Positions 3-34,468 of a stretch of DNA of 64,000 nt are shown here, piece by piece. Every line of letters begins with the position of its first letter. Position 1 is the stretch's first letter. The notes under the pieces are model-generated. The model saw nothing but the letters and a program-made list of their open reading frames with translations, was not told the origin of the DNA and did no database searches. The translations under genes were made by a program, and so were the position numbers. Source of the DNA: Ilex aquifolium (taxonomy: Eukaryota; Streptophyta; Magnoliopsida; Aquifoliales; Aquifoliaceae); NCBI GenBank assembly GCA_951799425.1, contig OX637402.1, positions 1,178,501 through 1,242,500 of the forward strand, read 5' to 3'.

Positions 3-778
3 AAGGAAGTTGTGAGAACTGAGGTGCTTAAGCTATTAGATGCAGGGATAATCTTTCTCATCTCTGATAGTAAATGGGTGAGCCCAACGCAAGTTGTGCC
101 CAAAAATTCTGGAGTCACAGTGGCAAAAAATGATGCCAATGAACTAGTACCAACTCGAGTCGTCACAGGATGGTGAATGTGCATAGACTATCGAAAGCTC
201 AATTTGGTAACTAGAAAAGACCATTTCCCTCTTCCCTTTCTTGATCAAGTTTTATAGAGAATTGCAGGCCATGTATTCTACTGTTTCCTTGATGGGTATT
301 CTGGGTATAATCAAATTGAGATAGCACTAGATGACCAGGAGAAAACAACATTCACATGTAACGCTCCTGCAACATTCCAAAGGTGCATGCTGAGTTCGTT
401 TAGCGACATGGTTGAGATTTTTTGGAAGTGTTCATGGATGATTTCTCTGTATATGGTGACTCGTTTGATTTGTGTCTAACAAACCTAGAGAAGGTGTTGA
501 TAAGGTGTAAGGAAGCCAATCTAGTGCTCCATTGGGAAAAATGTCATTTCAAGGTAACACAATGCATTGTTCTAGGTCACATTGTGTCGTCTGAAGGCAT
601 AAAAGTTGACAAGGCAAAAATCGATCTGATTGAAAATTTGCCTGCTCCCAAGACAGTAAATGATGTCCGATCATTCCTAGGACATGCAGAGTTCTACAAG
701 AGATTCATAAAAGACTTTAGTACCATATCTAAACCCATGTGTCATCTCCTAAGTCAGGATGTATCGTTTTTGGAGTGA
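3..778 (+). pseudogene. Reverse transcriptase part of Athila-type pol, broken
   Basis: Read in frame from base 3, the product shows the usual gypsy RT blocks: a KLLDAGII start region, CIDYRKLN, and LDGYSGYNQ with the first catalytic aspartate. From 422 it gives FMDDFSVYG (the YxDD box) and the thumb region ending in SFLGHAEFYKRFIKDF. Breaks: an in-frame TGA just before CIDYRKLN (about 174), a TAG at about 257, an in-frame loss of about 15 codons between FTC and NAPATF (about 360) that removes the RMPFGL block, and a 1-base frameshift in a T run near 415-421. A second frameshift near 770 separates RT from RNase H. The enzyme cannot work from this copy. Confidence 0.9.
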
Positions 779-2582
779 AGCATGCCAGAAAGCTTTTGAT
801 AAGCTTAAAGGTATGTTAATTTTCACCCCAAGAATGCAACCCCCTGACTGGACCCTGCCGTTTGAACTAATGTGTGATGTAAGTGATTATGTTGTAGGCG
901 CTGTGTTGGGACAAAGAAAGGACAAGAAACCCTATGTGATTTACTATGCAAGCAAAACTTTGAATGATGCTCAAATGAATTATTCAACGACTGAAAAAGA
1001 ATTACTTGCTGTAGTTTTTGCTTTGGAGAAATTTCGCTCTTATCTTGTTGGTTCTTCTGTTATTGTGTTCATTGACCATGCAGCATTAAAATTTTTGCTC
1101 ACAAAAAAGGATGCCAAGCCAAGGCTCTTAAGATGGATACTCTTACTCCAAGAGTTTGATCTGATCATTAAGGACAAGAAAGGTGTTGAGAATGTGGTGG
1201 CAGAACATTTGTCCAGATTAACGTATGAATTTCATGAGGATGGACTGTCAATCAATGAGAATTTCCCTAATGAGCAACTGTTCACAATCATGGAAACACC
1301 ATGGTACACTGATATTGCTAACTTCCATGCTACTGATATGTTTCATCCTTCCTTTACATTGATGGATAGAAATAGATTTATGTGGGAGGTTCGTAATTTC
1401 TTTTGGGAGGATCCATACGTATTTAAGTACTGTAAGGACCAAATATTAAGGCGTTGCATCCCCGAGCTTGAGAGCAGGCAGGTAATATCATTTTGCCATT
1501 CTGAAGCATGTGGTGGCCATTTCTCATCAAATAAAACAACTGCGAAAATCTTGCAGTGTAGATTTTATTGGCCCACACTTTTTAAAGATGTCCATGCCTT
1601 TTGTCTAACGTGTGATAGATGCCAAAAGTTGGGAAGCATTTTTAAAAGAAATATGATGCCATTAAACCCCATTCTGGTGATTGAAATTTTTGACTGTTGG
1701 GGCATTGATTTTATGGGACCATTTCCCCCTTCCTTTGGCTATCTATACATTTTAGTGGCTGTAGACTATGTGTCCAAATGGGTTGAGGCAATTCCATGCC
1801 GAAATAATGATCACCGAACAGTGATCAAGTTTTTAAAAGAAAATATTTTGCCCCGTTTTGGAATTCCGAAATCTATCATAAGTGATGGGGGTGCTCATTT
1901 TTGCAATTGTCCTTTCTGGAATTTGATGAAAAAATATTTGATTTTTCACAAAATTGCAACCCCTTATCATCCACAAACTAGTGGACAGGCAGAATTGACT
2001 AATCGAGAGATTAAACTGATTTTAGAAAAAACGGTAAACCCAGACCGCAAAGATTGGTCGTTAAGATTAACTGATGCACTCTGGGCATATTGCACTGCTT
2101 TCAAAATAATTTTGGGCATGTCTCTCTATCGATTAGTCTATGGCAAGCCTTGTCACCTTCCTGTGAAATTGGAACACAGAGCATACTGGGCCATTAAAGC
2201 AATGAACTTCGACCTAGACAAGGCTGGACTCTCAAGAAAACTTCAAATTAATGAGTTAGAGGAATTGAGAAATGAGGCATATGACAATGCAAAAATTGCT
2301 AAGTACAGAATGAAAATTTTTCATGACAAGAATATTGTGCAAAAGTCTTTTGAACCTTCTCAAAAAGTACTGCTATATAATTCAGAGCTTCATCTTTTTC
2401 CTAGTAAGTTGAGATCAAGATGGACTGGACCTTACATTGTCAAACAAGTGTTTGGACATGGAGCAGTGGAGGTGAAAAATCCACCAAACGGTAATATTTT
2501 TACCGTCAACGGTCAGCGTCTGAAACCATTTTTGGAAGACTTTGTTAAAGATGTGGGAACTATTTTTTTTAATGGATCCTGA
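759..2582 (+). CDS. RNase H-integrase segment of Athila-type pol (607-codon open frame)
   Basis: This open frame continues pol after a frameshift near 770. RNase H lies at about residues 10-150: MCDVSDY with a catalytic Asp, [13 protein letters not shown] with a Glu, and [11 protein letters not shown] with an Asp. The integrase zinc-binding region is at about 245-300 (two His, then CLTCDRC). The DDE core is visible as [16 protein letters not shown] and [16 protein letters not shown]-terminal RWTGPYIV block precedes the stop. No internal stop is present, so this half of pol is much better preserved than the RT. The first Met codon is only where the frame opens, since the native protein is a polyprotein. 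Codons are AT-rich like the rest of the element. Confidence 0.88.
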
Positions 2583-3360: not shown

Positions 3361-3766
3361 ATGGATAGTAAACTTTTTTGGTTCAGTTTAGGCGTTTTAC
3401 ACATTTTTCCATCTGATGTGCATGATGTGATAATGAGAAAGGCAAGAGTTGTGAGAAAAAATTGAAATCCGAGAAGAACAAGCAAAACCATTGTGTGGCA
3501 GAAGCACTTTTGCTAAACGTTGTCGTGCCAAACGACTGGGTGCTTGTAAACAATGTGGCAGGATCTTTCACATGAAGAAATACAATCAGTGCTTTGAACC
3601 AATTTCGGGTCGTGCAACCGATCGATTAAACTGGATAGTGTATGGGTAGAGTAAGAATTTTCCTGAGACGCCATCTTATACCAGTCCTATACTTACACGT
3701 TATGTGCGACAAAAAGTTGGAAGGGCCACTAATAATGACATAGACACAAGCGATGACTCAGATTAG
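3361..3766 (+). pseudogene. Small Cys/His ORF of the Athila-type family, frameshifted
   Basis: Starts at ATG 3361 (MDSKLFWFSLG). After a frameshift near 3455-3460 the homologous protein continues to a TAG at 3764-3766, with one further in-frame TAG at about 3646. It aligns over its whole length with the 134-aa product at 25728-26132 (minus). Shared features are FP-DVH-IM--A, PLCG-ST-AK, a C-x2-C-x4-H-x6-C cluster, EPISGR, DRL-WI, and PETPSY near the C-terminus. The spacing from His to the last Cys is six residues, against four in an ordinary retroviral zinc knuckle. Function is unknown; a nucleic-acid-binding role is only suggested by the Cys/His cluster. It lies 3' of pol, where Athila elements often carry env-like genes, but it has no visible signal peptide or membrane span. 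Confidence 0.72.
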
Positions 3767-5580
3767 ATTATTTTTTTGACAAAACTGTGAAAATTGTGTT
3801 TTTGGGATGAAAGCCAAGGGTCCGAATTTTTGTAAAAAGTGTAAATATCTTTTTATTAGATGTACAAAATCCTTTTTAGTTGAAAAAAAAAATGGGCCGA
3901 GTAAGGAATGTCCTAGAATGCCAACCTGTAGCGTGGATAGGGACTTATCCTGAGACACCATAGTTTTCTAAGTTCTATTTGGGCATTTAGTCTTCTTTCA
4001 ATTTTCATATATAAATGTGTATGTAAATAATTTTAATTTTTATTTGACATCTGAAAGCCAGTTTCACAAAAAATAAAAAACATCATTTCCTTGAAAAATG
4101 GTATTTTCTCTATGTTTAAATGTCAAATGTACATTGATATTTGTTATTCTTAAGGTACAAAATGACCAGACTTGAACATAGAATTGATATATAACCGACA
4201 TTCTTTGAAAACCTGACATAACCAGTGGAGATAACGAAGAATACCATGGTAAGTTTTCGAGTCTTGCGATGCTTTTGAGAGAAAATCAACATTTACTCAA
4301 GTAAGTTTTTTACTTTCTATCCTTGAATAATCTCATTATTATTGTTTTGATTGATGCAAATAGGGTAGTCTATTGATATATCCCACAAAGAATCTATTCA
4401 TACGAACATACATGTGCACATGCTTGAGAAAGGATCTTAGGCCATCTTTGATTTAATTTTTTAGCCTTAGCCATTTCTTTTTACAAAATTATATCCCTAG
4501 TTAGCCGTGATTGAGCCTTTAATGTGTGATTTCTTTTTCATGTAATCCATATGATAACCGAGCCACAGGAAAATATATTTGACATACCTTTGCTATCTAA
4601 TTTTCTTACACCCTCTTATAAATCAGTATGATATAGAAAAGCAAGAGAAAAATAAAATAAGATGGTGGCTACTGTTCAAAGAAAGAAAAGTATGTGGAAA
4701 CAACTGGAAAAAAAAAAAGAAGAAGAAAATGGCCAAGAAAGTGAAAAATAAAAAAAAAATGAAGAAAGAAATACCATGTAGGTGAAGTTTCGAAAAGCTA
4801 GAAAGAGGTGTGCTACATTACATAAAGAAAGGATAACTTTTGAATACCATTGATGTCGTTTCGTTAGCCACTGACCCCTGGCCACATTATAACCTATAAA
4901 AGACCTAATTGATCACAAGTCTGATGAATGTGTAGGTCGTCAATCAAAAGTGTGGGGTATGTTAAACAATATTACTTTATTTGTATCAATATTCTTCCAT
5001 GAGATTATGTCAAACCTGATTAGTCTGTTTCCTTGGATTTCAATCCCGTAATTGTTGAGAATGTGAATTTACAATTAACCTTCTTCTGATCACATGATTT
5101 TGAGAAAAAAATCACTACAATCGGAGAGAATTTTTGCTGAGAGATTTCTAAGAGAGGATTGTGAAATTAAAGCTATCCATGGAAGGTTGTAAAAAAGAGT
5201 TTTTGTTATATAATAATTCTTGTCGCTAGAATGATTATTCTTACTACATAGGGAATTTCAAATACCAATGTAACAAGTGCTTATTTTTACATAGAGTACG
5301 TACCTATGACAGAGAAGTGTTTGGGAAACAATTCGAAATTAAGGGATGGGTGTCTCCACGATCATGGTGCTACCTCATTCTGACAAGAAATCTTACATAT
5401 ACACATCTTTTAAACTGGAGTTTGTAGGTAGCTTCACTGAAAACATTCACAAGACAAAACTCATCCACTAGGGATTACCTAAGGGTTTAACGGCTTTTCG
5501 CATATGCTAAATACAATCGTGTCATCTACGAAAGTGATTTTATTTTGTTATGTTGTTATTTATTACTGAGGACTAGCAAT
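3767..5580 (+). other. Conserved 3' non-coding block of the Athila-type family
   Basis: No credible coding sequence is seen in these 1.8 kb; short open frames here are A-rich chance frames. Several stretches match the reverse strand of 22637-24300 in the pol-less element. One is the segment around 4850-4890 (CCACTGACCCCTGG), matching 23300-23360. Another is the segment at 5410-5530, matching 22680-22810 in inverted form (GTTTGTAGGTAGCTTCACTG). Conservation of non-coding DNA between a pol-bearing and a pol-less relative suggests cis functions such as packaging or RNA structure (inference). Confidence 0.65.
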
Positions 5581-5597
5581 GTTTAGGTTGGGGAGTG
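5581..5597 (+). other. Polypurine tract of the Athila-type element
   Basis: GTTTAGGTTGGGGAGTG directly precedes the LTR start TGATTAACCC. The pol-less element has the matching tract GTTTAAGTTAGGGGGTG before the same LTR start. This site primes plus-strand DNA synthesis in LTR retrotransposons. Confidence 0.8.
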
Positions 5598-7151
5598 TGA
5601 TTAACCCTAATTAATGCATAATTTAATTAAATTAATAGGTCAATTGTGTTTGTTAAACAAAGTTAAAAGAGTCAAAGTAAGACAAATTAGGGTTAGTATG
5701 TGAATTAGGGATAATGCATTAATTGTTGTTCTTTTCAGGGTTTCGTGTGTCAAAGCTACAAACTATTGGGGAGCCAACTGTATCAAAGCTAGAAACTACT
5801 GGGGAGCCAACTGTATCAAAACTACAAACTATTGGGGTGCCAATTGACAAAACTACAAACTATAGGGGTGCCAATGTCAAAGCTCAAAACAAAGGGGGAT
5901 CAAAGTGTAATTCAAACCCTCCCTTTTTCGTTGTGGAAAACCCTCCAAAAGATTCCTCCTTCACGGCTTGAAGTCGGATAGCTTGAAGCTTAAGGGCTCT
6001 CGGAATTCCCTTTCAAGCTTTCTCGAGTCACCCTAACGTAGTCCGAGTAGCTAGTCTTGAAGGAAGACGGACAACACGGACCAGGCACTCTTCCTAAAGT
6101 ATTATTCCTTTCTTTATTGCTTTATTTTATTGTATTATTGCTTTCTTTTATTGTATTATTGCTTTCTTTTATTTCCATTGTTTGAGCTTCCTTCTTCCCT
6201 TAGAGGAGTGAAACTCTTCCACTTTTCTAGAGCTTTACCAAAGCCGTAAAGGGTGGAAAGTGATTCACTCATTCTTTGTCAAAGATCGGCTCCTTGTGTA
6301 GTGTATTTTACCTTGTAACTCCTCTACTTGGAGGGATGAGCATCACTCACTTTTCTAGCTTTACCAAAGCCATGAAGAGTGAGTAGTTTCTCATTCACTC
6401 TTTAGTAAAAGGTGATGGACATGTATAAATCATTCGGAAGTTATATTTGTGCATTTCGTTTATGCTTAATGCTTTATATTTCACTTGTTTATTGAATGAT
6501 TGAATGCATCTAGTAAAGCTAAGGTACTTTGTTAACCGTGAGTACTTTCTATGATGTAGATGACTCTTGACATAGAAAGACTCATTGGTTCAAGACAAGT
6601 ACCCCGACTAGATCTTCATGACTACATTTCAATCTTCACCATTATTGTGCTTCAATTAAAGAATGGAATACTAATGCCATGGTTGGATGCCTTGTAGAAA
6701 CACTTGCTTGTTTGTAGACGGGTTGAGTCTCGGCACATACAATTCTTGTAAACTTCTACAAAGACACCGGAACCATGCTATTAATTCTCACAATCCATTT
6801 TTATCTTCCGATTAACTTTATGTTGACACGGTGGTTAATTGAGTTCCCAAGCACAAGTATAATAAATCGGATGGTTAATACATGTGCAGATCCTCGAGCT
6901 AAAGGGTGACTGTTACATTTGAGAACTTCTTATATTTTGTCTAGAAAATTCCCTTGGAAAGAATCTTATATTTTGTCCAGAAAAATCCATAAACATCACA
7001 ACTTTAAATCTCAAGGATTCCAATCACTAAGGTCTTTATCACTGCTTACTTTTAAACACCAGTATTAGGTCCCTGTGGATTCGACTCCGGACTTAACCGG
7101 ATTATTACTACAACTTGACCGCCTGCACTTGAGTGTACACATTTCGGATCA
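5598..7151 (+). repeat. 3' LTR of the Athila-type element (about 1.55 kb)
   Basis: Begins TGATTAACCC after the polypurine tract and ends GGATCA at 7151, where Tekay-type integrase sequence begins a few bases later. The ends TGAT...ATCA are inverted copies. The last 100 bases resemble the matching end of the LTRs at 20645 and 26584 (CCTGTGGATTCGA against TCTGTGGGATCGA, then CTTGAGTGTA against CTTGGGTGTA). A TATAAAT lies at about 6425. The 5' LTR is outside the window, so its age cannot be judged. Confidence 0.8.
5747..5885 (+). repeat. About 33-bp tandem repeat, four copies, inside the LTR
   Basis: The unit contains CTACAAACTATTGGGG followed by a short AT-rich spacer with GCCAA(C/T)TG. Four diverged copies follow one another, the last shortened. 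It lies near the 5' end of the LTR (U3), where retroelements often carry repeated enhancer modules; that role is inference. Confidence 0.75.
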
Positions 7152-7154
7152 AGT

Positions 7155-7700
7155 CAGACACCTCGGAGAAAGTGGACTTGATACGGAAGCGTCTTCTCAC
7201 GGCTCAGAGTTGACAGAAGAGCTACACTGACAGACGGCGACGATCTCTAGAGTTTGAGGTGGGATATCACGTCTTCTTGAAGGTGATTCCTAAGAGGGGA
7301 GTGGTCAGGTTCGGGAAGCGAGGAAAGCTGTCGCCGAGGTATATTGGGCCCTTCAAGATACTCGAGAGGGTTGGTACAGTTGCTTACCGGTTGGCGTTAC
7401 CGTCAAATCTAACGGGTGTTCACACGGTGTTCCATGTCTCTATGCTCCAGAAGTATACTCCAGATCTGACACATGTGGTGGATTGGGGTGAACTGATTGT
7501 TGATACGGATGAGACCTTTGAGGAAGGACCGGTGTGTATCATGAATAGCCGAGAGCAGGTTTTGTGAAGCAAGACCGTGAGGCTAGTGAAAGTGTTGTGG
7601 CAGCACCGAGGTGTGGAGGCGTCATGAGAGCGTTAGGACACTATACGTACCAGTTATCCTTTCTTATTCAAGGATGGAGGTACATTCTTATAGCCACTTA
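7155..7700 (+). pseudogene. C-terminal integrase and chromodomain-like tail of Tekay-type pol
   Basis: In frame from about 7155 the product gives SDTSEKVDLI, then SLEFEVGYHVFLKV, FGKRGKLSPRYIGPF and GVHTVFHVSMLQKY, the typical integrase C-terminus of chromoviruses. It then gives SKTVRLVKVLWQHRGVEAS, a group II (CR) chromodomain-like motif. Homology to the copy at 34000-34468 is clear. Stops at 7214-7216 (TGA), 7565-7567 (TGA) and about 7627 (TGA) interrupt it. The first two replace arginine codons, as expected from CGA-to-TGA change at a methylated CpG. The longest uninterrupted frame is 7259-7567. Confidence 0.85.
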
Positions 7701-20111: not shown

Positions 20112-21079
20112 CATTCCAAGCCCTATTTGCCCCATTCTTCATCTCATCCTCACCACAAACATCTTAGAGCCCTAGGAGGAGATAAAGAAAAGGAAAAACA
20201 CCAAGATCAAGATAGATTCACACCTCATAGAAATCAAAACCGAAATTCCTCAAGAACCCCATTCTTCTCCTCTCTTCCTATACACTTTCACTACACCCTT
20301 ACCCACATCTCTTAGAACCCTAAGAGAAGACAAGAAGGAGAAGGAGAAGGGAGGAAGGAGATCTTTGGAGCTTGGGTTAGCTTACAACTCTTGGATTCAA
20401 GGTAGGGGATTTCTTCCTATGCTCTTACATTGATGTTAGGGTTAAATTATATGTATTCTTTTGGTTCAAAATCATATATACTTGCTATTATTGACTTGAT
20501 TCTTGATCCCCTTGCATTTATTGCCATGTTTTAAACATTGTGGTAGTTGGGTAACCATTGAAGGTCCATTTTTCATTCTCAAACCCTAGTTTTAAGAAAA
20601 ATGAATCTTCCTCTTTACATTTTCTTTGTTCTCACCATCACAACTGATTCGCACTTTTTAGTGTGTCAGAATTATATTATTATATTACACCCAAGTATAA
20701 GTGGTCGAATTGTAGTTTTCTTGGTTTTTGAGTCCAAGTATCGATCCCACAGAGAGTTTTAGTAATTAAAATAAAATAAAATAAATAAAATAAAAATAAA
20801 GCAATAAAAAGGTTGTTTGGAGTAGTTTGATGTTTGATTGCTTGTGGTGTGAGCTTAGTCTAATGACGGTGTTAAAAACTTGATTCTAAAACAACAGGTG
20901 GAATAAAGGTGCAGAAATAAAATGCGTAAGTAAAACAGATTAATGACAGAAATATAAAAGATATCCTTCAGTTCAAGGATCCCACATGCTTTACATCGGT
21001 CTTGTTACGGAATTGCTACCTCACAGCAGTTAACTTCCATTTTACTGGCAAGCTAACCGGCAGGTCTGATGTATATATA

Positions 21080-21430
21080 TATTATAACACAGCTGCTTCT
21101 TAGGCTACACTGGGTATATTTATGTCAAATGATTAACCCAAGCAAACCAGAAGGACAAGCCATTCATGAGGAATACTTGAGTTATTCACTTGATCTCATG
21201 ATTGCAAATACGTATATATATATAATAAACCATAACACAGCTGCTTCTTAGGCTACACCGGTGGTAATATATAGCACAGTTGCTTCTTAGGCTACACTGG
21301 GCTTAGATGTTCCAATTGATTAATTCAAGTAAAATCCGCAGGTGGTACAGACTATCTTCCGGCGACTTGTCAGGTCAACCGGTGGTAGTTAATCATAATA
21401 CAGCTGCTTCTTAGGCTACACTGTATTTAG
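21080..21430 (-). repeat. Recurrent CAGCTGCTTCTTAGGCTACAC motif in the LTR
   Basis: Near-identical copies occur at about 21090, 21238, 21268 and 21401, separated by unrelated spacers, and again in the other LTR (about 27029, 27177, 27207, 27340). A second recurrent block (GGCGTCAGTGGAACTTCCTC, then GGGGTCATTCTAGCTGGCCC) follows at 21530-21800. Confidence 0.8.
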
Positions 21431-22255
21431 ATATATCACCCAGAAAGTGAAGTTACTTGAGCGGCATACTTGAATTATTCAATAGGTTATCTTGTAATAT
21501 TTATATATATATATATATATATATAGACAGTAGAACTTCCTCAGCGTTCCAGTGTAGGACTAGCCATACTGAGAGGATCACCGGGGTTATTCCAGCAGGC
21601 AATATTATTATATATATAGTAATACCAGGCGTCAGTGGAACTTCCTCAGCATTTCGGTGGAAACGCCGGGGTCATTCTAGCTGGCCCGTCTTGTATATAC
21701 ATAATACTACCAGGCGTCAGTGGAACTTCCTCAGCATTCCAGTGGAGGATTAACCATACCGGTTGGAACGCCGGGGTCATTCTAGCTGGCCCGTCTTGTA
21801 TATATAATAAACGTATACATAAAACATCAGCAATTCCAAAAACAGATCAATATTATACATGTGTTCCCCTCGAACCGGAGGATATACGGAACTACTCACG
21901 CTCCATTGCTATAGACAAGCAAGGAGAGCTAGCAGTTGTCATTACAGCAAAAAGGAAAGTGCGGAATTTAAATGTCTTTCGCAGGGAACGATTGAAACAC
22001 AGCCACTCTTATAATCAGTTAAGATGAAAAAGTGGCGGCAGTTCAACTATTCGAATTGAAAGCTACACAAAAACTATAAAAGTACAGGACTTAGGACTGA
22101 AGTATAACACGGACCGGAGTGTATTTTCTCTTCTCTTTTCTTTCTCTCTTTTTCTCTCTTCAGAACTTCAGAACTTCAGAATCTCTCTCAGATCTCTCTG
22201 TTTCTCTCTTCTTTTCTGCCTCAGTCCGGCCGTAGGAAATGCAGAAGAAGCTGCA

Positions 22256-22265
22256 GTATTTATAG
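22256..22265 (-). promoter_or_regulatory. TATA box of the pol-less element's LTR
   Basis: CTATAAATAC on the minus strand, 51 bp downstream of the second TCCGGA palindrome. The same box occurs in the other LTR at about 28193-28202 (minus), where it would drive the element. Confidence 0.7.
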
Positions 22266-22316
22266 GCAAATGAAGGCAAGTGGGGGAAGAGATGAGGCTG
22301 AGTCTGACAAGGGTGA

Positions 22317-22350
22317 CCGTCCGGACGGCAGTCCCACCGTCCGGACGGTG
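22317..22350 (-). promoter_or_regulatory. TCCGGA palindrome pair upstream of the TATA box
   Basis: CCGTCCGGACGG (22317-22328) and CACCGTCCGGACGGTG (22335-22350) are perfect palindromes of 12 and 16 bp. The second LTR has the identical pair at 28254-28265 and 28272-28287. Confidence 0.85.
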
Positions 22351-22619
22351 ATGCTTTGCTGGAAACGGCCACTTGCATGCATGCTGAGTCTTCACGTTGG
22401 GTAATTACACTTTGGCCTTCATTCTTTACATTCCCTTGACATTGCTCCCTTGGTCTTGCGTTATTTCAGCATTTGTCCTGCAACTTTGAGATAAAATGTT
22501 ATAACTAGTATTATTCCCGCACAAACCCTAATTCACTCTAAGTACTAATTCTTAGTGCATTTGTTATACTAATTCAAGTTTTTTGATTTTTGAATTTACA
22601 CACAATTTAGGGTTAATCA

Positions 22620-22636
22620 CACCCCCTAACTTAAAC
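22620..22636 (-). other. Polypurine tract of the pol-less element
   Basis: On the minus strand this reads GTTTAAGTTAGGGGGTG, immediately before LTR start TGATTAACCC. It is nearly the same as the tract at 5581-5597. Confidence 0.85.
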
Positions 22637-24339
22637 TTTACTAGTCCCTAGTAAAATAAAAAGAAAATATAATACAAGTGGGGTAAAATCATTTTCGTAG
22701 ATTTTTGTTCGATTGCATTTAGCATATGCAATAAGCCATTAAACCCCTAGGTGATCCCTAGTGGACGAGTTGTGTCTCGTGAAGGTTTCCAGTGAAGCTA
22801 CCTACAAACTTCAGTAATTAGGAATGCATATTCCATATTTTTCACATGCATGCTTAAGATGATATTTCTTCTGTCTTGCTAGAATGCTTCCTTTTTCTGA
22901 TCACCTTGAGAGAATCATATGTTGGGTGTAGTATTATCTATATATTTTTATGAAAACTTGTGTGTGTGTGTAGTGATGTTTTTATTTTCAGAAATCACTT
23001 GAAAAATATTACCCTCTTTCATGGTAGTCTTGATGTCAATCCTTCCCTGGAATACACTCAGTAAGAATAGCACACATGTTATAGTGACTGTTCTTATAAT
23101 CTTACATGTGATTGGAATATTGATAACAAAACAAATTATTTCACATGTAATAGAAAGGAGCGGTTATGTTAAATAAACTGGAAATTGACATAATCTCATG
23201 AAAGAATATTAACACTGTATTAAATATATTGTTAACATTTTCCTTTTTAGATTGCTAGAATGAATGCAAATATATGATTTCTGGAATCAAAAAGGACTTT
23301 ATTAAGGTTGTAACGTGGTCAGGGGTCGGGGTGTAAGAAACGACGTCTATGGGGTTCAAAAGCTACCTTTTGGCACACCTCATAAAACATTTTTCACTTT
23401 CTTGGCGAGTGCATTTTATGCTCCATCTCGCTTTTTGTTGAACGGGTGCGTTTTACGCTCCATCCCGTTCTCAACTCATGCTTTTTTTTTTTTTTTTTTT
23501 GAGTGCATTTTATGCTCCATCTCACTTTTTTGGTATCCTGTTGATTTAAAAGAGGGTGCAAGAAAATTATGTAGCTCAGGTAGGTTTAATATCTTTTTAT
23601 CTGGCTCGGGTCTTTTTCAGGTTTCATGAAAAGAATTTATACTATTTTAGGCTCAAACATGGTTGACTAATGATATAATTTTGTAAAAGAAATGGTTAAG
23701 GCTCAAAATTAATCAAACATGGCCTAAGATCATTTTCCAGAAATCCTATATTTATATTCTTTCTAGATAAATAGTTAAGGGCAATGTACATAATATATTT
23801 CAAGACGTGCTAATCAAAGCAAATATAATGAGATTATTCAAAGAAAAGTTACCGCTGAATCGAAGATTCGTAGTTGAGTAGATGTAGCATTTCTCTCCAA
23901 GAAAGAATGGCTCTAATTCTGCATTTGGTTTTTACATCTCCACTATATATAGAAAGAGTGTAGTATTTTGCATGGTTTTCAAAAATAAAGACATCTGTTT
24001 GTGCTGCTAAGGTTAAGTTCGAATAAAAATATTGAGATAACGTACAGCTAAAATATAAAAGTCTCATGAGATCAGATTGAGAGTATTTTCGCAAGGCATT
24101 AGAATATAATCCTAATCTAACTGTGAATTATATGAAGTATACTTCCTACTTTAGCAATGTATGCTCTCATTTTAAAACATACTGAAAATTAAAACATATT
24201 AGTTCAAACATAAACATATAAGCAAAATTTAACTAAGTTCAAATCACACAAACATAAAAAACATAAAACATAACTTTAAGTTTTAAGTGCAGAAATTGAA
24301 AGTGCATAAAATAAAACGGTGAGTGAAAGAAAGCAAAAG

Positions 24340-24379
<40 letters not shown>

Positions 24380-24392
24380 CAGATCAGTCAGT
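22637..24392 (-). other. 3' non-coding block of the pol-less element
   Basis: No credible coding sequence. It matches the reverse strand of 3767-5580 in several blocks. It includes a T run in the 23480-23500 region and a long poly-T run at about 24342-24375 (poly-A on the coding strand) just after the larger ORF. Confidence 0.65.
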
Positions 24393-25514
24393 TTAAGAGT
24401 TAGAAGATTCTCCTCTGGAATAGTTTTGAAATAACTGCAGCAGCTCATCTTTATATTCATTCATGCGTTGATTGATCTGAATAATGCTGGACTCGACTTC
24501 TAACAAGACCTGTCTATCAGTCCTATCATCCATGGGGATGTATGACTGATCTTCTTGTGGCTGCTGTTCTTGTGGTATGTATTCTTCAGATACCTAACCT
24601 GGTTCTTCAAATGGTTCTTCTTCATGTGATGAAGATATTTCTTGTTGGTTTCCTATTTTTCTTCCATGACTCTTCTTTAACGTAGTTTTATCCACTGGTC
24701 CAAGATGCTCCACTGTTTTCCATGTTGGATTAATGATCACGCCTGCATTCCTGCATATCTGTGAAACTATCATTGCATACGGGAGTGTGAGCTTCCTATT
24801 ATCCACAGCAATTATCATTTGGTCTAAGATTAAATTTGGAAGGTCAATTGTGTGCCCCATTCCCAATGCATATAGGAAATAAGCATGGTCAATAAAGATT
24901 TGATACTTTAGGGCTCGTGGAAGCAAATTGTACACTGTTATCATATTTAGGATGCGATACTTGTTTGTCAGGCTTCCTTGTTTAATGTAACTATTTGGGC
25001 GTCCCCAAATGAATTCTGGATTTCCTGTCAATTCTTTTCCTACTTCAGTCAAACTAGGTAGTTCAGTGTAGGGATATTGTGGTTGGGGTTGTCTTCGCAT
25101 GGGCCGAAAGAATTCTGCTATAGTGTCTGGTGTAACTTGAAAAGTTATTCCCCGAACAAATATACGCAGTAGTCTTTTTCCTTTAATTTCAGCATTACTG
25201 TAGAATTCCCTAACTAAACAGTCATATGCAGGAACAGATAACCTAACATACTGTAGCCATCCTCTTTCATGGAGAATTTGTCTTATGTTTTCAAAATCTT
25301 CATATATTACTACCCTTTCAGAAATAATATTTTTAGTTCGGTAGTTTGTATCATACCAGATTCGTTGTTCCAAATTTTCAAATATCACCTCATCAAAGTT
25401 GTTTCCCGGTTGAGGTGGTTGTGGAGATGTCTCGGATTGCGAAGATTGAGTCTCTTGTGCATATCTTGAAGATCTTCTTGTTTGTGGTCTTCGATCCGTC
25501 TTTTTGACTGCCAT
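24393..25514 (-). CDS. ORF of about 373 aa, plant transposon protein domain, one in-frame TAG
   Basis: ATG at 25512-25514 (MAVKKTDRRPQTRR), stop at 24393-24395. The N-terminus is basic and Ser/Gln/Pro-rich. A conserved globular part follows: RGWLQYVRLSVPAYDCLVRE, FVRGITFQVTP, IWGRPNSYI, and LPRALKYQIFIDHAYFLYAL. It resembles the domain called 'putative plant transposon protein' found in Athila env-like ORFs and related plant ORFs (family recall, not a search). A TAG at 24594-24596 interrupts the frame after GEE-type acidic sequence. Beyond it about 66 more codons read without a stop and include a heptad-like segment (VLLEVESSIIQINQRMNEYK). The TAG is either a CAG-to-TAG mutation or a readthrough site. 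The open frame extends 5' of the ATG to a TTGCAG/GA at about 25594, which could be a splice acceptor. No membrane span is seen, so an envelope role is not supported. Confidence 0.75.
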
Positions 25515-25727
25515 TTTTTTATTGGTTCTTGGTTTGTAATTGCAGGTTGTTTCTTTGATGTTTGACACTGGTACTCTTTTTCCTGTCAATTCCTGCAATT
25601 TACAACATTAAATATAAGTTTATTTTTATTTCTTATTTACGGGTTTCCTATTTACTCTAATAGCTCTTTATATTTATTTACAGCTATACATATATTCCCA
25701 AAAAGCTATACATTTCATTGATCATAT

Positions 25728-26132
25728 CTAGTCTATATCAGAACTATCTAGTTCAGTAACATTAGTGACACGGTTAATTTCAGATCTCACGTATCTGTTT
25801 AGCATCGGGCCGGAATAGGATGGCGTCTCAGGGTAATCCTTGCTCTGCCCATCCCTAATCCACCGTAAACGATCTAACGATCGACCAGAAATTGGTTCCG
25901 CACACTTATTATACTGTCTTAGATGTTCTGTACGACCACATTTTACACAAGCACAGAGACGATTTGCTCTTCGATGTTTAGCATATGTGCTTTTCCCACA
26001 TAGGGGTCGTGCTTGGCTTTCAAAGATTTCGAAATTTCGAACAGCTTTAGCTTTTTGCATGATCAATGTATGTATATCTTTTGGAAAGTGACGTAATAAA
26101 ATTAAACTCAACCAAAATAATTTTTCATCCAT
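25728..26132 (-). CDS. 134-aa Cys/His protein of the Athila-type family
   Basis: ATG at 26130-26132 (MDEKLFWLSL), stop at 25728. It has a Cys/His cluster C-x2-C-x4-H-x6-C at about residues 61-76 and an upstream PLCGKSTYAK with another Cys. These are followed by PISGR, DRLRWI and a C-terminus rich in Asp/Ser (TELDSSDID). It matches the broken copy at 3361-3766 in the pol-bearing element. In that element the gene follows pol; here it is the first ORF after the primer-binding site. The leader just upstream (GTTAAAGAACCAGATAGGG) also matches 3325-3345, so this element looks like a deletion of everything from gag to the end of pol. Function unknown; nucleic-acid binding is possible. Not a standard CCHC zinc knuckle because of the longer last spacer. 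Confidence 0.8.
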   Translation of the reverse strand: MDEKLFWLSLILLRHFPKDIHTLIMQKAKAVRNFEIFESQARPLCGKSTYAKHRRANRLCACVKCGRTEHLRQYNKCAEPISGRSLDRLRWIRDGQSKDYPETPSYSGPMLNRYVRSEINRVTNVTELDSSDID

Positions 26133-26559
26133 TTTTTTTTTTTTTTTAAAATATAAAAATGACTCAAAGAAAAATTATTTAAAATTGACTCCCTATCTGG
26201 TTCTTTAACGTCTGCCAGTCACAAAGACGAACAAAATTTTTAACTTACTATTATTTTAAACTCATAAAGTAAACTCATATGTCTATCTCTCTAATTTAAA
26301 TTAAACCTTAGTCTCATATTTATAATATAAAATTCTAATAATAAAAATAGACACAGAAACTGTACAAAAGACATAAAAACATAAAAGAAATAAAATTTTT
26401 GACTACTATATATAAGAAGTGCATAAAGGATAGGGGTTGAGCTGGCTGGTTTATTGAACCTACTGATGACCGTACAGACATAAACAAATAAAAACAAATT
26501 ATAAACAACTATTTTATTTTTTTATTTTTTTTTTTATTTTCTATTTATATTACCGTAAC

Positions 26560-26577
26560 TCCCCGGCAACGGCGCCA
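26560..26577 (-). other. Primer-binding site for tRNA-Asp
   Basis: On the minus strand this reads TGGCGCCGTTGCCGGGGA, complementary to the 3' end of plant tRNA-Asp (TCCCCGGCAACGGCGCCA as seen on the plus strand). It is six bases from the LTR. tRNA-Asp priming is characteristic of Athila elements. Confidence 0.9.
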
Positions 26578-26583
26578 AAAACT

Positions 26584-28556
26584 TGATTCGCACTTTTTAG
26601 TGTGTCAGAATTATATTATTATATTACACCCAAGTATAAGTGGTCGAATTGTAGTTTTCTTGGTTTTTGAGTCCAAGTATCGATCCCACAGAGAGTTTTA
26701 GTAATTAAAATAAAATAAAATAAATAAAATAAAAATAAAGCAATAAAAAGGTTGTTTGGAGTAGTTTGATGTTTGATTGCTTGTGGTGTGAGCTTAGTCT
26801 AATGACGGTGTTAAAAACTTGATTCTAAAACAACAGGTGGAATAAAGGTGCAGAAATAAAATGCGTAAGTAAAACAGATTAATGACAGAAATATAAAAGA
26901 TATCCTTCAGTTCAAGGATCCCACATGCTTTACATCGGTCTTGTTACGGAATTGCTACCTCACAGCAGTTAACTTCCATTTTACTGGCAAGCTAACCGGC
27001 AGGTCTGATGTATATATATATTATAACACAGCTGCTTCTTAGGCTACACTGGGTATATTTATGTCAAATGATTAACCCAAGCAAACCAGAAGGACAAGCC
27101 ATTCATGAGGAATACTTGAGTTATTCACTTGATCTCATAATTGCAAATACGTATATATATATAATAAACCATAACACAGCTGCTTCTTAGGCTACACCGG
27201 TGGTAATATATAGCACAGTTGCTTCTTAGGCTACACTGGGCTTAGATGTTCCAATTGATTAATTCAAGTAAAATCCGCAGGTGGTACAGACTATCTTCCG
27301 GCGACTTGTCAGGTCAACCGGTGGTAGTTAATCATAATACAGCTGCTTCTTAGGCTACACTGTATTTAGATATATCACCCAGAAAGTGAAGTTACTTGAG
27401 CGGCATACTTGAATTATTCAATAGGTTATCTTGTAATATTTATATATATATATATATATATAGACAGTAGAACTTCCTCAGCGTTCCAGTGTAGGACTAG
27501 CCATACTGAGAGGATCACCGGGGTTATTCCAGCAGGCAATATTATTATATATATAGTAATACCAGGCGTCAGTGGAACTTCCTCAGCATTTCGGTGGAAA
27601 CGCCGGGGTCATTCTAGCTGGCCCGTCTTGTATATACATAATACTACCAGGCGTCAGTGGAACTTCCTCAGCATTCCAGTGGAGGATTAACCATACCGGT
27701 AGGAACGCCGGGGTCATTCTAGCTGGCCCGTCTTGTATATATAATAAACGTATACATAAAACATCAGCAATTCCAAAAACAGATCAATATTATACATGTG
27801 TTCCCCTCGAACCGGAGGATATACGGAACTACTCACGCTCCATTGCTATAGACAAGCAAGGAGAGCTAGCAGTTGTCATTACAGCAAAAAGGAAAGTGCG
27901 GAATTTAAATGTCTTTCGCAGGGAACGATTGAAACACAGCCACTCTTATAATCAGTTAAGATGAAAAAGTGGCGGCAGTTCAACTATTCGAATTGAAAGC
28001 TACACAAAAACTATAAAAGTACAGGACTTAGGACTGAAGTATAACACGGACCGGAGTGTATTTTCTCTTCTCTTTTCTTTCTCTCTTTTTCTCTCTTCAG
28101 AACTTCAGAACTTCAGAATCTCTCTCAGATCTCTCTGTTTCTCTCTTCTTTTCTGCCTCAGTCCGGCCGTAGGAAATGCAGAAGAAGCTGCAGTATTTAT
28201 AGGCAAATGAAGGCAAGTGGGGGAAGAGATGAGGCTGAGTCTGACAAGGGTGACCGTCCGGACGGCAGTCCCACCGTCCGGACGGTGATGCTTTGCTGGA
28301 AACGGCCACTTGCATGCATGCTGAGTCTTCACGTTGGGTAATTACACTTTGGCCTTCATTCTTTACATTCCCTTGACATTGCTCCCTTGGTCTTGCGTTA
28401 TTTCAGCATTTGTCCTGCAACTTTGAGATAAAATGTTATAACTAGTATTATTCCCGCACAAACCCTAATTCACTCTAAGTACTAATTCTTAGTGCATTTG
28501 TTATACTAATTCAAGTTTTTTGATTTTTGAATTTACACACAATTTAGGGTTAATCA
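26584..28556 (-). repeat. 5' LTR of the pol-less Athila-family element (1,973 bp)
   Basis: Nearly identical to 20645-22619. Differences seen are G/A at 21202 against 27141, T/A at about 21760 against 27697, and one TA unit in the AT microsatellite. It carries the same palindrome pair (28254-28287) and TATA box. Confidence 0.95.
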
Positions 28557-29711
28557 ACAACCTTAGTGTTTGATATTGTATAAAAAAATGATGTTTATGG
28601 TGATCTCTTGCTCTTTTTCTTCAATTTTGCTATGGTACAAATTGTGAAATTTGGGGATTTGTGAAGTTATTTGTTAATTGAGGAAATTGTGGATATCGTC
28701 TGTCTTGTTTGGTTGTTTGGAGGAACAAGGGTGAGAGGTTCCTTGTAAGGATGCTTGAGAAATAAGGCTTTGAGGGTGAATTGGGGACTTGTGAAATTGT
28801 TGGTTATGTGAGATATTTATTGGTATTTCATTTCTTACGTGGTTGTACGATACGAACATGGATTACTATGGACCGGGGATCATGTAGTGGGTATACGTCT
28901 TTATATGCCACGCGGGTATGAACTTTTCCTACCACATGGAGTGGGTAGACGCCTTTGTACGCCGTGTGGGTATAAACTTTTCATATCGCTAATGATCACG
29001 GTTTAGTAACGTGGGTTGTATCGGGCACACCGTGTGGGTCATCGTGCATTGTACCATAAATTGTTTTGACAAGAGTTTCGGGAAGTATGGGATTCTGCGA
29101 GAACTTGTTGAAAACGGTTCATGGTAGAATGAATTACCATTGGTATATGGTGTTTATTTATCCATTTCGATTACTATTGCTACTTAAACTTGAGATCTAT
29201 TTAAAATGTCCTGCTTTTCCTTCAAAATGTTATATATGCTATTTGTGAAAATGAGACCAACCGTTTTATATGCTTTCCTAAACCTTGTTTGAGTTTGGGA
29301 AGATTTTGCTACAGAGCTTCGTGCTCATCCCCTACAATTAACATTTTTCAGATTATGCTATAGAGGAGGAGCTTGGCGCTAATGAGCAGGGCCTTGGGGA
29401 AGCCTCATTAGAGGGGTACCTGGATCCCGAGTGGGAAATTTAGATATGTCCTTTTATTTTTGTACTAGACTAGGAACCAATATGTACAAGCATTGTAAAG
29501 TCTAGTTTCTTTTGCTATTCCGCTGTGCTATTTTAATTAATTTTTGAGATGTAAATGCCATGGTTGGGCATATTCTTTTGGATAATGATTTAAATATTTT
29601 ATGGATGATTAATGAATTTTAATTTATTTATGGATGATATTAGTGCTCTCATGATGTGAATGTTTTAGAATGTAATGCCGTCCAGGGTGTGTTTTGGGGC
29701 GTTACAATTGT

Positions 29712-31628
29712 CCCATACCAATGCACCGGCCAAGACAATCCAACCATCATTCTCTATATATATATTTTGGTTCATCCCCGTACCATGTATGTTGATTGTT
29801 TCTCATGAATCTACCCAACGATTATACCTAGTCCACCTATTTACATCATAATCACAAGCACTATAGGAAAGGGCGTCTACCATCCCAATGGCAGTGACGA
29901 GTCCCTTCCTAGGAAAAGTATACAATCCCTTGTTCGAACTCCAGTGAACGATAGTGGTCACATTACCAAATGACAAACCACTACAAGTGTTAGGAAACCA
30001 TCTCACCCCTCACTGGGATAAACTAACCTCTAACACTCTACGGCATCTCTCGATGGCAATCCAAGTCCCTCACAACAACCATACAATGAGGAAACCAAGA
30101 TATTCTCCATTCATAAACAATTTCCAATATATACAAAATCCACAATTCCTCATTTATAATTCAAGAGTCACAAGTGTACCATTCTCAATATACTACAATA
30201 CTAAGGAATTTAAAATATGCAAGAGATCATATCAATAAACCTTCACAACCTTGATATCAAAATTCTAGGGTTTTTCCAAACCAAACATAATTTCTTGGAA
30301 TAATAACAAGGATTAGATTAAAACATGATTTAGTCAACAATAGGCATTTAGAAATCATGAATTCATGTATTTTTCATAACCCAAACATGTATTTAACAAA
30401 ACTAAGATTTTGGGAACTCAAGAACAATGTCTCTTGAACCCAATCATGCATTTTGTTCAAAATCTATGTTTCAATAACAAAGAATCCAAGAACTCATATC
30501 TATTTATCATATACTCTCAAGAATATTGAAAACATACATATATAATACCCTAATCCTCAATGAAAGAGTTTGAGAAGAATCCCCTACCTTGAATCCAAGT
30601 TCCAAACCAAAACCCAAGCTCTAGAGATCTCTTTTCTCCCTTTCCTCCTTTCCTCTATCTTCTCCTAGGGTGCCAAGAGGTTTTGGGGTGAGAGATGTGA
30701 GAAAAATGGAAGAAAAAGGGGCAGAATTCTGAGTTTAAACCCAGCAGTCCCGTTTTTTTACTGTTCATGGCTGATTTGAGTTTTCTCCAAAATTACAGTT
30801 TTGCCACTACACATTCCAAATTGGATCCATATGACTATCCTAAGGTTTTTCGACGTTCCGGATTCATTTTTAATGTTATTTTAACCGAAAAACATTTATT
30901 TTTATGATTTATTTCAAACTAAAATAAATTTACACTCGAAACATTAAAATTACTATCCAAGGAACACCATAGTGCAGATTTTTGGTCAACTTCGGAGAAT
31001 AAACTGATTTGACTCAGGTATTTCTAGTATGTGTGATCTATATGGTTGGAAAGATATACGAGTTAGGGTTCTAACAAAATAACGGTGCGCAATTTGGACT
31101 TTCCAACCAAGAGTTATGATCAAATTGGTGAAAGGTAGTCTGCCGAACTGTTTCGACATCGCTTCGTTATCTGGGTATAACTCTCTCATCCGAGCTCCAA
31201 TTGAGATGATTCAAGATGCTATGGAATGCTAAGAAAGAGCTCTACAACTTTCATGTTTTGATTTTTGAAAGATATTGACTGAATCAAGGTATAAATTGGG
31301 CTTGAAGTTGCAGCCAGTGCACTGTTCACTGTTTCATCCATTTTCCATTTCCAATCCATTCCTAAGCCAACCAAATCCATCCCATACATGTTTAACATGG
31401 TTTCCCACCTAAAAATTGATACCTACAAGTTCTATTACACCCCATTTCATACATCTACAAATCAAAACTAAGTTCCAACTACTATTTACCCTATTTTCAC
31501 AATACGAACATTTTTTTCTTCTACGTTTACAATCTACCTAGTCCATGCATACATCCTTACACATATTACATTTCAATGAAATTATGAATTGCTCGCTATA
31601 TATATCTATAAAAGTGTGGGGGTTTACA
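29712..31628 (-). repeat. Inverted LTR of the chimeric element, second part
   Basis: Continues the LTR interrupted at 19499 and ends GGGGGTTTACA at 31628. 30600-30950 matches the 26-kb element's LTR (for example the block around 18010-18240). From about 30957 it departs from that LTR and instead has a different U3 that matches 39475-39665. Confidence 0.78.
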
Positions 31629-31677
31629 ATCCACCCCCCTTAAAGAAAGTTTCGTCCTCGAAACTTACCTCAAGTAG
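31629..31677 (-). other. Inverted polypurine tract and pol 3' end, fold-back junction
   Basis: ATCCACCCCCCTTAAAG and the following bases are the reverse complement of 34461-34509 (end of pol, GAGGACGAAACTTTC, polypurine tract). At about 31678 this inverted copy joins forward RT sequence, with TGAA/CGAA as a short shared word at the join. Confidence 0.85.
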
Positions 31678-34468
31678 TGAAATTGCTCCCTACCGGATGG
31701 CACCTTTGGAGTTGAAGGAGCTAAGGAAGCAGTTGGATCAATTGTTGGCGATTGGGTTTATCCGTCTAAGCACTTCACCCTGGGGAGCCCCGGTCCTCTT
31801 TGTGAAGAAAACGGATGAGACTCTCCAGTTGTGCACGGATTACCGGAGGTTGAATCGGGTTACCGTGAAGAATAAGTATCCGTTGCCGAGAATTGATGAC
31901 TTATTTGATCAGTTGAAGGGTTCAAAGTATTACTCCAAGATTGATCTTCGGACGGGGTATCATCAGCTACGGATTAAGGAGGAGGATATTCCTAAGACTG
32001 TTTTCCGTACCCGGTATGGTCATTTCGAGTATACGGTGATGCCGTTTGGATTGACTAATGCCCCCGCAGCCTTCATGGATTTGATGCACAGAGTCTTCCG
32101 GCCTTACCTCGATCAATTTGTCATTGTGTTTATTGATGACATATTGGTTTACTCACAGACTCAGGAGGAACTTGTTCGTCATCTCTCTAAGGTGCTACAA
32201 ACATTGAGAGAACATAAGTTATATGCGAAGATGAGCAAGTGTGAGTTTTGGATGAAGGAAGTGAAGTTCCTTGGCCATGTTGTGTCCGAGCAAGGAGTAG
32301 CGGTTGATCCCGCAAAGATTGAGGCCGTGATGAAATGGGAACCATCGAAGAATGTGACAGAAGTACGGAGTTTCTTGGGGTTAGCCGGCTATTATCGTAG
32401 GTTTGTGGAAGGATTCTCCAAGCTTGCGATGCCGATGACTCGCCTCACAAAGAAGGGATAAAAATTCATGTGGACTCAAGCGTGTGAGCTAGCCTTTCGC
32501 ACCTTGAAGGAGAAGTTGACAACGGCGCCTATCCTCATTATTCCGAGTAGTGGGGAAGGATATGATGTGTACACCGATGCTTCGCTACGAGGCTTGGGAT
32601 GTGTGTTGATGCAAGGAGGGAAGATGGTCGCTTATGGCTCGAGGCAACTTAAGGTTCATGAACAAAATTATCCCACCCATGACTTAGAGCTCACCGCTGT
32701 GGTTTTTGTTCTTAAGTTGTGGAGGTGTTACTTGTACGGAGAGAAATTCCAAGTATTCTCGGATCATAAAAGCCTCAAGTACATATTCACACAGAGAGAC
32801 TTGAACCTTCGACAAAGGAGGTGGGTTGAGTATTTAGAAGACTATGATTTCACACTCAACTACCATCCGGGAAAGGCGAATGTAGTTGCCGACGCTCTTA
32901 GCAGGAAGTCTCGAGGTGAAATCAATTTTCTTGCGGTAAATAGGTGGAAAATGATTGATGCATTGGAGGAGTACGATCTATGGGTGGATGTACCGGAGTA
33001 TCAACCATACCTATTCAATCTTGTAGCTTAACCGACGCTTCAGCGACGGGTAGTAGAGTTGCAATGCCTGGACTCGGCACTCGATTTGATTAGAGCCCGA
33101 TTGGAGAATGGAGAAGCGATTGAGGGATGGTCTTGGAAGAAGGGAGAGTTGAGATATGAGAAGAGGCTATGTGTTCCCGATGATTCGTCGCTAAAAGAGG
33201 AGATACTTGGAGAGTGTCATCGCTCTAAGTTTGCTATCCACCCCGGTAGCACAAAAATGTATAGGGACATGAAGCGCCAATATTGGTGGAAGGGAATGAA
33301 GAAGGATGTGGCAAGGTTCATAGCACGATGTGCGGTGTGCCAACAGGTGAAGATTGAACATCAAAAGCCAGGAGGATTACTACAATCTTTGCCTATCCCA
33401 GAGTGGAAGTGGGATCACATCACCATGGATTTCGTGTCGGGTTTACCACGGACGTCGCGCGGGCATAACGCAGTATGGGTTATTGTGGATAGATTCACCA
33501 AGTCCGCTCATTTCTTGGGTATGAAGACCACGGATACATTCGAGACTTTGAGCCAGCTGTATATCCATGAGATTGTGCGATTACATGGAGTTCCACTTTC
33601 TATCGTGTCGGATCGTGATTATCGGTTTGTGGCGAGATTCTGGCAAAGTCTACAACAAGCGATGGGGACAGAGTTACACTTCAGTACGGCTTTTCATCCC
33701 CAAACGGATGGCCAATCCGAGAGGGTGATACAGATTGTGGAAGACATGTTACGTGCTTGCGCGTTGGACTTCAAAGGAAGCTGGAGTGATCACTTGCCGT
33801 TGGTAGAATTTGCATACAACAATAGCTATCATGCAAGCATTGGGATGGCACCGTATGAAGCCTTGTATGGAAGACCATGCAGATCACCGACGTGTTGGTT
33901 AGAAGCCGGCGAGAGTAGTTTGTTTGGACCGGACATTGTTCGAGAAACTACGGAGAAGATTCAACTCATCCGAGAGAGGCTACGGACGGCGCAAAGTAGA
34001 CAGAAGAGCTATGCGGACCACCGATGAAGACCCTTAGAATTTAAGGTGGGAGACTATGTATTTCTCAAAGTGTCACCCAAGAAGGGCGTGTTTCGATTCG
34101 GCAAGAAAGGGAAGTTAGCGCCAAGATATACCGGACCATTTGAAGTGATCAAGGTTGTGGGCAAAGCGACGTATCAGTTGCGGTTACCAGCTCAGTTGTC
34201 TGGGGTACATGACGTGTTCCACGTGTCGATGTTGAGGAAGTGTCAATCGGATGCAACTCCAGTCGTGGATTTAGAGGATATTGAAATTCAAGATGGAGCA
34301 ACATATGAAGAACAACCGGTGGAGATTCTTGATGCCAAGGAAAAGGTGCTCCGCAACAAATTCATCTGACTCGTGAAGGTTTTGTGGTGACATCATGGCG
34401 TGGAAGAAGCTACATGGGAACCGGAGCAAGAAATGCGGGAGAAGTATCCATATTTGTTCGCTACTTGA
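31678..34468 (+). pseudogene. Tekay/Del-type pol: RT, RNase H, integrase, chromodomain-like tail
   Basis: Enters pol at [18 protein letters not shown], so the gag, protease and RT start are missing. RT shows [46 protein letters not shown] and FIDDILVYS (YxDD box). RNase H shows [22 protein letters not shown] and FSDHKSL, ending in ADALSRK. Integrase shows HPG...C-VCQQVK, ITMDFVSGLP, VSDRDYRF and HPQTDGQSERV, then the GKLAPRYTGPF tail and a CR-type chromodomain motif (LVKVLW, HHGVEEATWEPE). In-frame stops: TAA 32459, TAA 33029, TGA 34025, TGA 34367, TGA 34388. The native stop is at 34466-34468. The three TGAs stand where relatives have Arg codons. The rest of the frame is well kept. Open parts: 31589-32461, 32468-33031, 33059-34027, 34046-34369. 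Confidence 0.93.

Follow-up and report, generated by a model that had tools for sequence, protein, structure and literature searches.

In a 64,000-nucleotide (nt) stretch of the Ilex aquifolium genome (contig OX637402.1, positions 1,178,501 to 1,242,500; hereafter the window), we analysed a long terminal repeat (LTR) retrotransposon at 20645-28556 that encodes a 134-aa protein resembling the nucleic-acid-binding proteins (NABPs) of plant RNA viruses. We hold with moderate confidence that the element is a recent gag-pol-deleted derivative of an Athila-like Ty3 lineage, which carries in the 'env' position a virus-type NABP gene that is under purifying selection and may serve to counter host silencing. 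A first-pass annotation, made from the letters of the window alone, had noticed a Cys/His protein of this length, and its open reading frame (ORF1) proved to be intact. The viral type of the protein, the existence of a second copy of its gene at 3361-3733 of the window and the placement of the element on the minus strand were all absent from that annotation.

The assignment of ORF1 was based on Pfam profile searches. The protein matched PF05515 (Viral_NABP) at 44.7 bits against a cut-off of 23 (E 2.1e-11, residues 8-105) and PF01623 (Carla_C4) at 25.0 bits against a cut-off of 20.9 (E 1.9e-5); PF05515 is described here as mainly viral on the strength of its family name and description. Relatives were then collected. 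A single-sequence search with ORF1 retained three of six candidates at E <= 0.01, and a five-row profile search yielded 17 relatives among 2060 candidates at E <= 1, the weakest at 2e-16. These 17 sit on contigs (longest, 528-3026 bp), and the names given by JGI describe two of them as 'Viral nucleic acid binding' and one as ribosomal protein L37AE/L43A, the other 14 being without a name. An alignment (A4) was made of the window ORF1 and its 13 longest relatives, leaving out the fragments P0019-P0022 (49-64 aa). All 14 members passed the cut-off of PF05515 and 13 passed that of PF01623, P0001 being the one that failed. The finger C-X2-C-X4-H-X6-C beside a basic stretch was kept in 13 of the 14, P0001 again differing in that it is without one cysteine.

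Seven shuffled versions of ORF1, three of them with Cys and His fixed, gave no match to either family. The finger core by itself contributed 14.4 of the 44.7 bits to PF05515, which is below both cut-offs; about two thirds of the score therefore lies outside the core, and the similarity extends further than the finger. The shuffles, together with this test of the separate pieces, led us to reject a chance profile match. An origin of ORF1 from a gag nucleocapsid was also rejected, as no zinc-knuckle family was reported for it in Pfam at E <= 1.

Within the window, the only other significant match of ORF1 was a decayed NABP-like copy on the plus strand (Table 1). Its open piece (3458-3646) passes Pfam in its own right, at 23.5 versus 20.9 bits for PF01623 and, barely, at 23.2 versus 23 for PF05515. 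This copy begins 778 nt past the RNase H-integrase frame of a second, pol-bearing element, in which Pfam recognised RVT_1 (1.1e-5, under the curated cut-off), RT_RNaseH (7e-35), Integrase_H2C2 (6e-14) and rve (7e-14). The two elements also resemble each other around the gene: the end of the leader preceding ORF1 (26230-26187) matches 3302-3345, directly upstream of the second copy, and the 3' blocks of the second element, up to its terminal polypurine tract (PPT) at 5582, match the 3' region of the first element at 71-79%. Because the homologue lies downstream of a reverse transcriptase (RT) remnant and an RNase H-integrase frame, the simplest origin for ORF1 is inheritance from an ancestor that still had gag-pol; the shared upstream and 3' blocks likewise point, as the simplest history, to the loss of gag-pol by a relative of an element of this kind. 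The first-pass annotation had taken the 134-aa gene for the element's own cargo, a claim that this homologue behind pol in another element does not support. We also considered a stand-alone viral fossil and rejected it, since the NABP-like gene occupies a corresponding place, with corresponding flanks, in two elements. Sequences classed as endogenous non-retroviral RNA virus sequences lie outside a transposon's own genome, and ORF1 lies inside one. A further PPT-like tract, TTTAGGTTGGGGGGTGTGAT (3109-3124), was seen between the pol and the NABP copy of the second element and differs little from the terminal one at 5582; the 3' module may have been joined on at this point, or the tract may serve as a central PPT.

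Comparison of ORF1 with the second copy revealed that the NABP-like gene is under purifying selection between the two window copies. The nonsynonymous rate dN was 0.33 and the synonymous rate dS 1.53, a ratio of about 0.22 (123 aligned codons, 122 used; the count omits the frame-break codon, one stop codon and residues 125-134). Differences by codon position fell at 43, 28 and 58 of the 123 codons, and the ratio of the corresponding proportions, pN/pS, was 0.31-0.54 in 95% of 5000 bootstraps and reached 1 in none of them. Since one of the compared copies is a pseudogene, the signal of selection should be weakened by it. In the tree, one split at 100/100 separated ORF1 and P0001-P0003 from P0009-P0018 and the second copy, the latter represented by a 63-aa piece filling 46% of the columns. 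As this split parts the two window copies, each of which has relatives elsewhere, the gene appears to be old in the family, which suggests an origin before the two element families diverged.

The element has the anatomy of a non-autonomous LTR retrotransposon, with near-identical LTRs, a target-site duplication, a primer-binding site (PBS), a PPT and no gag-pol of its own detected. All of its parts, including PBS, PPT and both ORFs, read on the minus strand, and a cargo in antisense orientation was thereby ruled out. The LTRs differ by two substitutions, at 21200 (G/A) and 21764 (T/A), and by one TA unit at 21502-21503, and the duplication ACAAC is perfect on both sides, in agreement with the first-pass annotation. 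The very recent movement that it had proposed is likewise supported by a Jukes-Cantor distance of 0.00101 between the LTRs, which, at a rate of 1.3e-8 per site per year, dates the insertion to about 39,000 years ago, an age that is very rough because just two substitutions underlie it. The PBS claimed earlier is present 6 nt after the 5' LTR; its sequence TGGCGCCGTTGCCGGGGA we take to be the complement of tRNA-Asp, and a tRNA-Asp PBS presumably to be an Athila trait. In each LTR, two diverged internal repeat families built on GCTGCTTCTTAGGCTACAC and GTGGAACTTCCTCAGC were also observed (21083-21457 and 21528-21810, and in the other LTR). The perfect palindrome CCGTCCGGACGG occurs twice, at 22317-22328 and 22337-22348, 20 bp apart and again in the other LTR; judged by eye, it lies just upstream of the LTR TATA box in the sense of the element and is possibly a regulatory site.

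To assess the loss of gag and pol, 12 of the 21 stop-to-stop frames of at least 45 aa in the internal region were scanned with Pfam, and none matched gag, protease, RT, RNase H or integrase. The 12 comprised the two main ORFs, which match no gag or pol family, and ten others, which gave nothing below E 0.06; they cover 10 of the 11 sense-strand frames, the nine frames left out being eight antisense and one sense. The pol of the second element, used as a tblastn query against the internal region, gave a best match of E 0.38. The earlier statement that the element encodes no RT, integrase or gag is upheld by these searches, with the proviso that short decayed gag remnants could escape a comparison holding no reference gag. 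Its corollary, dependence on the enzymes of other elements, follows from the missing pol; as to which element supplies them, no helper was identified.

ORF2, which lies downstream of ORF1, belongs to the Transposase_32 family (PF20167). Its frame is open from 25607 to 24594, and the distance from the ATG at 25514 to the stop at 24393 amounts to 374 codons solely when an in-frame TAG at 24596-24594 is disregarded; the 374-codon ORF of the first-pass annotation is closed by this TAG. P0004, a relative whose 383 aa run without interruption, has a C-terminus that shares 51% identity (E 1e-17) with the piece after the TAG, and the TAG was therefore read as a premature stop. Of the proposal that both ORFs were kept because they matter, the part on the NABP-like gene is supported, for the lineage, by the dN/dS of about 0.22 between copies; ORF2 is broken by the stop in this copy. 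A tblastn search found no match of ORF2 elsewhere in the window, so the second element has lost it or never had it. ORF2 is of a known kind, the 3' accessory ORF of the Athila ORF-1/Transposase_32 type: a sunflower Athila element bears a Transposase_32 ORF, which its authors relate to Athila ORF-1 (PF03078) (PMC11728184). Upstream of ORF2, a candidate intron runs from a donor GTAAGT (26248-26243) to an acceptor TTGCAG (25598-25593), and hypothetical splicing at these sites would excise ORF1 and join an ATG at 26278 in frame with ORF2.

Table 1. Features of the element and of the second, pol-bearing element (window coordinates).
Feature	Position	Strand	Basis or remark
Pol-bearing second element, truncated at the start of the window, with RT remnant (419-775) and RNase H-integrase frame (756-2582)	419..2582	+	Pfam
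Decayed NABP-like copy with frame break and in-frame stop	3361..3733	+	60% aa identity to ORF1, E 2e-38
Second element, PPT-like tract (5582-5597) and putative 3' LTR (5598-7151)	5582..7151	+	LTR ends by eye; no partner within the window
Target-site duplication ACAAC (left)	20640..20644	.	Sequence comparison
3' LTR (element sense), 1975 bp, TGATTAACCC...GCGAATCA	20645..22619	-	Sequence comparison
PPT-like AGTTAGGGGGTG adjoining the 3' LTR	22620..22631 (read 22631-22620)	-	Read from the sequence
3' non-coding region, ~1.8 kb	22620..24392	-	Three main blocks match parts of 4429-5599 (second element) at 71-79% identity
ORF2, Transposase_32 (PF20167), broken by in-frame TAG 24596-24594	24393..25514	-	Pfam, E 1.4e-25
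Candidate intron GTAAGT...TTGCAG, 656 nt, 67% A+T	25593..26248	-	Inferred; sole sense-strand GTAAGT, phase checked
ORF1, 134 aa, virus-type NABP-like protein, basic stretch and C-X2-C-X4-H-X6-C finger	25728..26132	-	Pfam
Leader between 5' LTR and ORF1, 451 nt, 7 upstream ATGs	26133..26583	-	Sequence
PBS TGGCGCCGTTGCCGGGGA, 6 nt past the 5' LTR	26560..26577 (read 26577-26560)	-	Sequence
5' LTR (element sense), 1973 bp; TATAAATA from 28201	26584..28556	-	Sequence comparison
Target-site duplication ACAAC (right)	28557..28561	.	Sequence comparison

Taken together, these results inspired a model in which a deletion would have removed the whole stretch from the leader to the accessory module, and an autonomous relative presumably packages and copies the RNA of the element. 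Unspliced RNA, with ORF1 as its first long ORF, would express the NABP-like protein, and spliced RNA would express ORF2. The basic stretch and zinc finger probably let the protein bind RNA, and it may aid the element, most likely by weakening the RNA silencing of the host in the manner of the viral proteins, a function that we propose because of the family resemblance to those proteins. More tentatively, and with less than even confidence, we suggest that Athila-like elements share a counter-defence gene with plant RNA viruses by horizontal transfer: a betaflexivirus-type suppressor in the env position, selected through more than one family and kept by gag-pol-less derivatives, would act as a retrotransposon-borne anti-silencing factor. 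ORF1 is an extra ORF with a named viral relative of known activity class, which makes a defined silencing-suppression experiment possible.

Several observations count against the reading of the element as an Athila-like derivative with a selected, virus-type gene. The dS between the two copies is near saturation, and the NABP-like gene is known from only two genomic contexts, both in the window and one of them decayed. Both flanks of the ORF1 finger, searched alone, matched no Pfam family, and the finger contains a His, whereas the published fingers of the carlavirus cysteine-rich proteins (CRPs) are all-Cys. The relative that its source labels as ribosomal protein L37AE/L43A is P0016. The best PDB matches of the family profile were likewise ribosomal zinc proteins and weak (E 0.36-0.97), sequence searches of PDB reaching best E values of 0.39 and 0.36 to ribosomal or unnamed chains. 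Structure predictions for ORF1 had mean confidence scores (pLDDT) of 49.8 with 4 sequences and 49.3 with 14, and thus lend the fold no support. No NABP relative was confirmed on viral or prokaryotic contigs in four scans of viral_contigs and one of genome_contigs, each with 2-6 short peptide patterns. ORF2 is broken in this copy, and membership in Athila would follow from the PBS type, which we presume, together with the PF20167 ORF.

Among the alternatives, the most probable for this copy is that both ORFs are passive passengers here: one gag-pol deletion would have left the 3' half of a full element, and too little time would have passed since the insertion for ORF1 to decay. We give this a probability only a little short of even. 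The premature stop in ORF2 and the age estimate of about 39,000 years fit it, a pol-bearing form is documented by the second element, and the selection measured is that between families and not that among non-autonomous copies; against it, ORF1 is still intact after whatever rounds the deleted lineage has made. The main rival for the function, which we consider rather less probable, accepts the homology but gives the protein a part in retrotransposition, as a chaperone of the element RNA or a factor for its nuclear import or export, instead of in silencing suppression. A review by Vicient and Casacuberta treats nuclear-localised accessory ORFs and suggests roles like those of retrovirus accessory proteins (PMC7264820). 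The basic stretch and CCHC-like finger would suit RNA packaging or chaperoning, and retention by a non-autonomous element would be sensible if the protein acted in cis. However, the closest named family is that of viral silencing suppressors, and the nucleocapsid function is normally provided by gag.

Transfer in the reverse direction, by which the 3'-terminal CRP gene of betaflexiviruses would descend from a host gene or a plant retroelement, seems rather improbable to us. The diversity of the ORF1 family speaks for it, and at least one carlavirus is without a CRP, according to a title in the reference list of PMC5179071, so that the CRP can be dispensable in viruses; on the other side, nothing in the analysis polarises the transfer, the tree being without viral sequences. 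Convergence, in which any small basic protein with a Cys/His finger would match these profiles, is very improbable, for although the finger ligands differ from the carlavirus patterns (PMC3689765, PMC9559581, PMC5179071), the core alone stays under both cut-offs, the flanks alone match nothing and one relative bears the name of a ribosomal zinc protein, two profiles are passed above curated cut-offs (PF05515 over residues 8-105 and by all 14 members), none of the seven shuffles, three with Cys and His fixed, matched either family, and no gag zinc-knuckle family was reported for ORF1 at E <= 1.

Some other features of the window were recorded. A Ty3-type pol remnant at 31580-34027 shares 25-38% identity with that of the second element, and a further one was recognised by eye at 7214-7567; both presumably derive from chromoviruses. 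Inspection of the ORF list by eye showed, at 50409-59556 on the minus strand, pieces of a C2H2 zinc-finger gene that resemble a INDETERMINATE-DOMAIN transcription factor. A CCA/CAC-rich low-complexity stretch, open in several frames, extends over 46244-49272, and a cluster of tandem repeats with periods of 31-266 over 53098-55204. An Rfam search of the window returned no matches.

Plant LTR elements often hold extra ORFs between pol and the 3' LTR, the origin and function of which are open. Among the matches listed in the open-access literature (subscription papers and supplements being outside this scope), there was no report of an NABP/CRP gene in an LTR retrotransposon. A survey of extra ORFs counted just those of at least 250 codons (PMC6317226), and a 134-aa gene would therefore be missed by it. 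A 2020 review describes antisense additional ORFs without similarity to other transposable elements or viruses (PMC7264820), and a 2025 paper on Retand elements gives recombination with an unknown virus merely as a possibility (PMC11963269).

The CRPs of carlaviruses and betaflexiviruses (NABP; PF05515, PF01623) are the nearest viral counterparts of ORF1. In carlaviruses, the CRP is encoded by a 3'-proximal ORF, has a basic motif by its zinc finger, and is a silencing suppressor and pathogenicity determinant (PMC8742542, PMC3689765, PMC9559581, PMC5179071, PMC10219291). ORF1 is alike in size (134 aa, against 133 aa for the NaBP of SPCFV; PMC5179071), in the basic motif beside a zinc finger and in its above-cut-off profile match. 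The CRP, however, sits in an RNA virus and ORF1 in a nuclear LTR element, and the fingers described for carlaviruses are C-X2-C-X9-C-X4-C, C-X2-C-X12-C-X4-C and C-X2-C-X4-C-X3-C (PMC3689765, PMC9559581, PMC5179071), whereas 13 of the 14 ORF1 members have C-X2-C-X4-H-X6-C in place of an all-Cys finger next to the basic motif. For this reason, ORF1 is called NABP-like and is not filed as a carlavirus CRP.

Within the Athila clade, sunflower 'Athila 14' (PMC11728184) is comparable in its PF20167 3' ORF and in having an accessory ORF in the env position; its extra ORFs are of 487 and 70 aa, whereas here gag-pol is gone and the NABP ORF precedes the PF20167 ORF. Endogenous non-retroviral RNA virus sequences (PMC3136472) likewise provide a plant chromosomal sequence related to a betaflexivirus gene; that case is a replicase-like sequence in cucumber, in contrast to the small conserved gene found here inside a mobile element, and in two elements. 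The nearest precedent is the orchid Ty3/gypsy elements that acquired an AlkB N6-methyladenosine (m6A) demethylase, reported together with a domain screen of 121 genomes whose main text names no NABP domain (PMC9289625). The AlkB protein is different from ORF1, and the two cases are alike in that a plant Ty3 lineage fixed one more ORF directed at RNA, its domain being of a type found in betaflexiviruses too.

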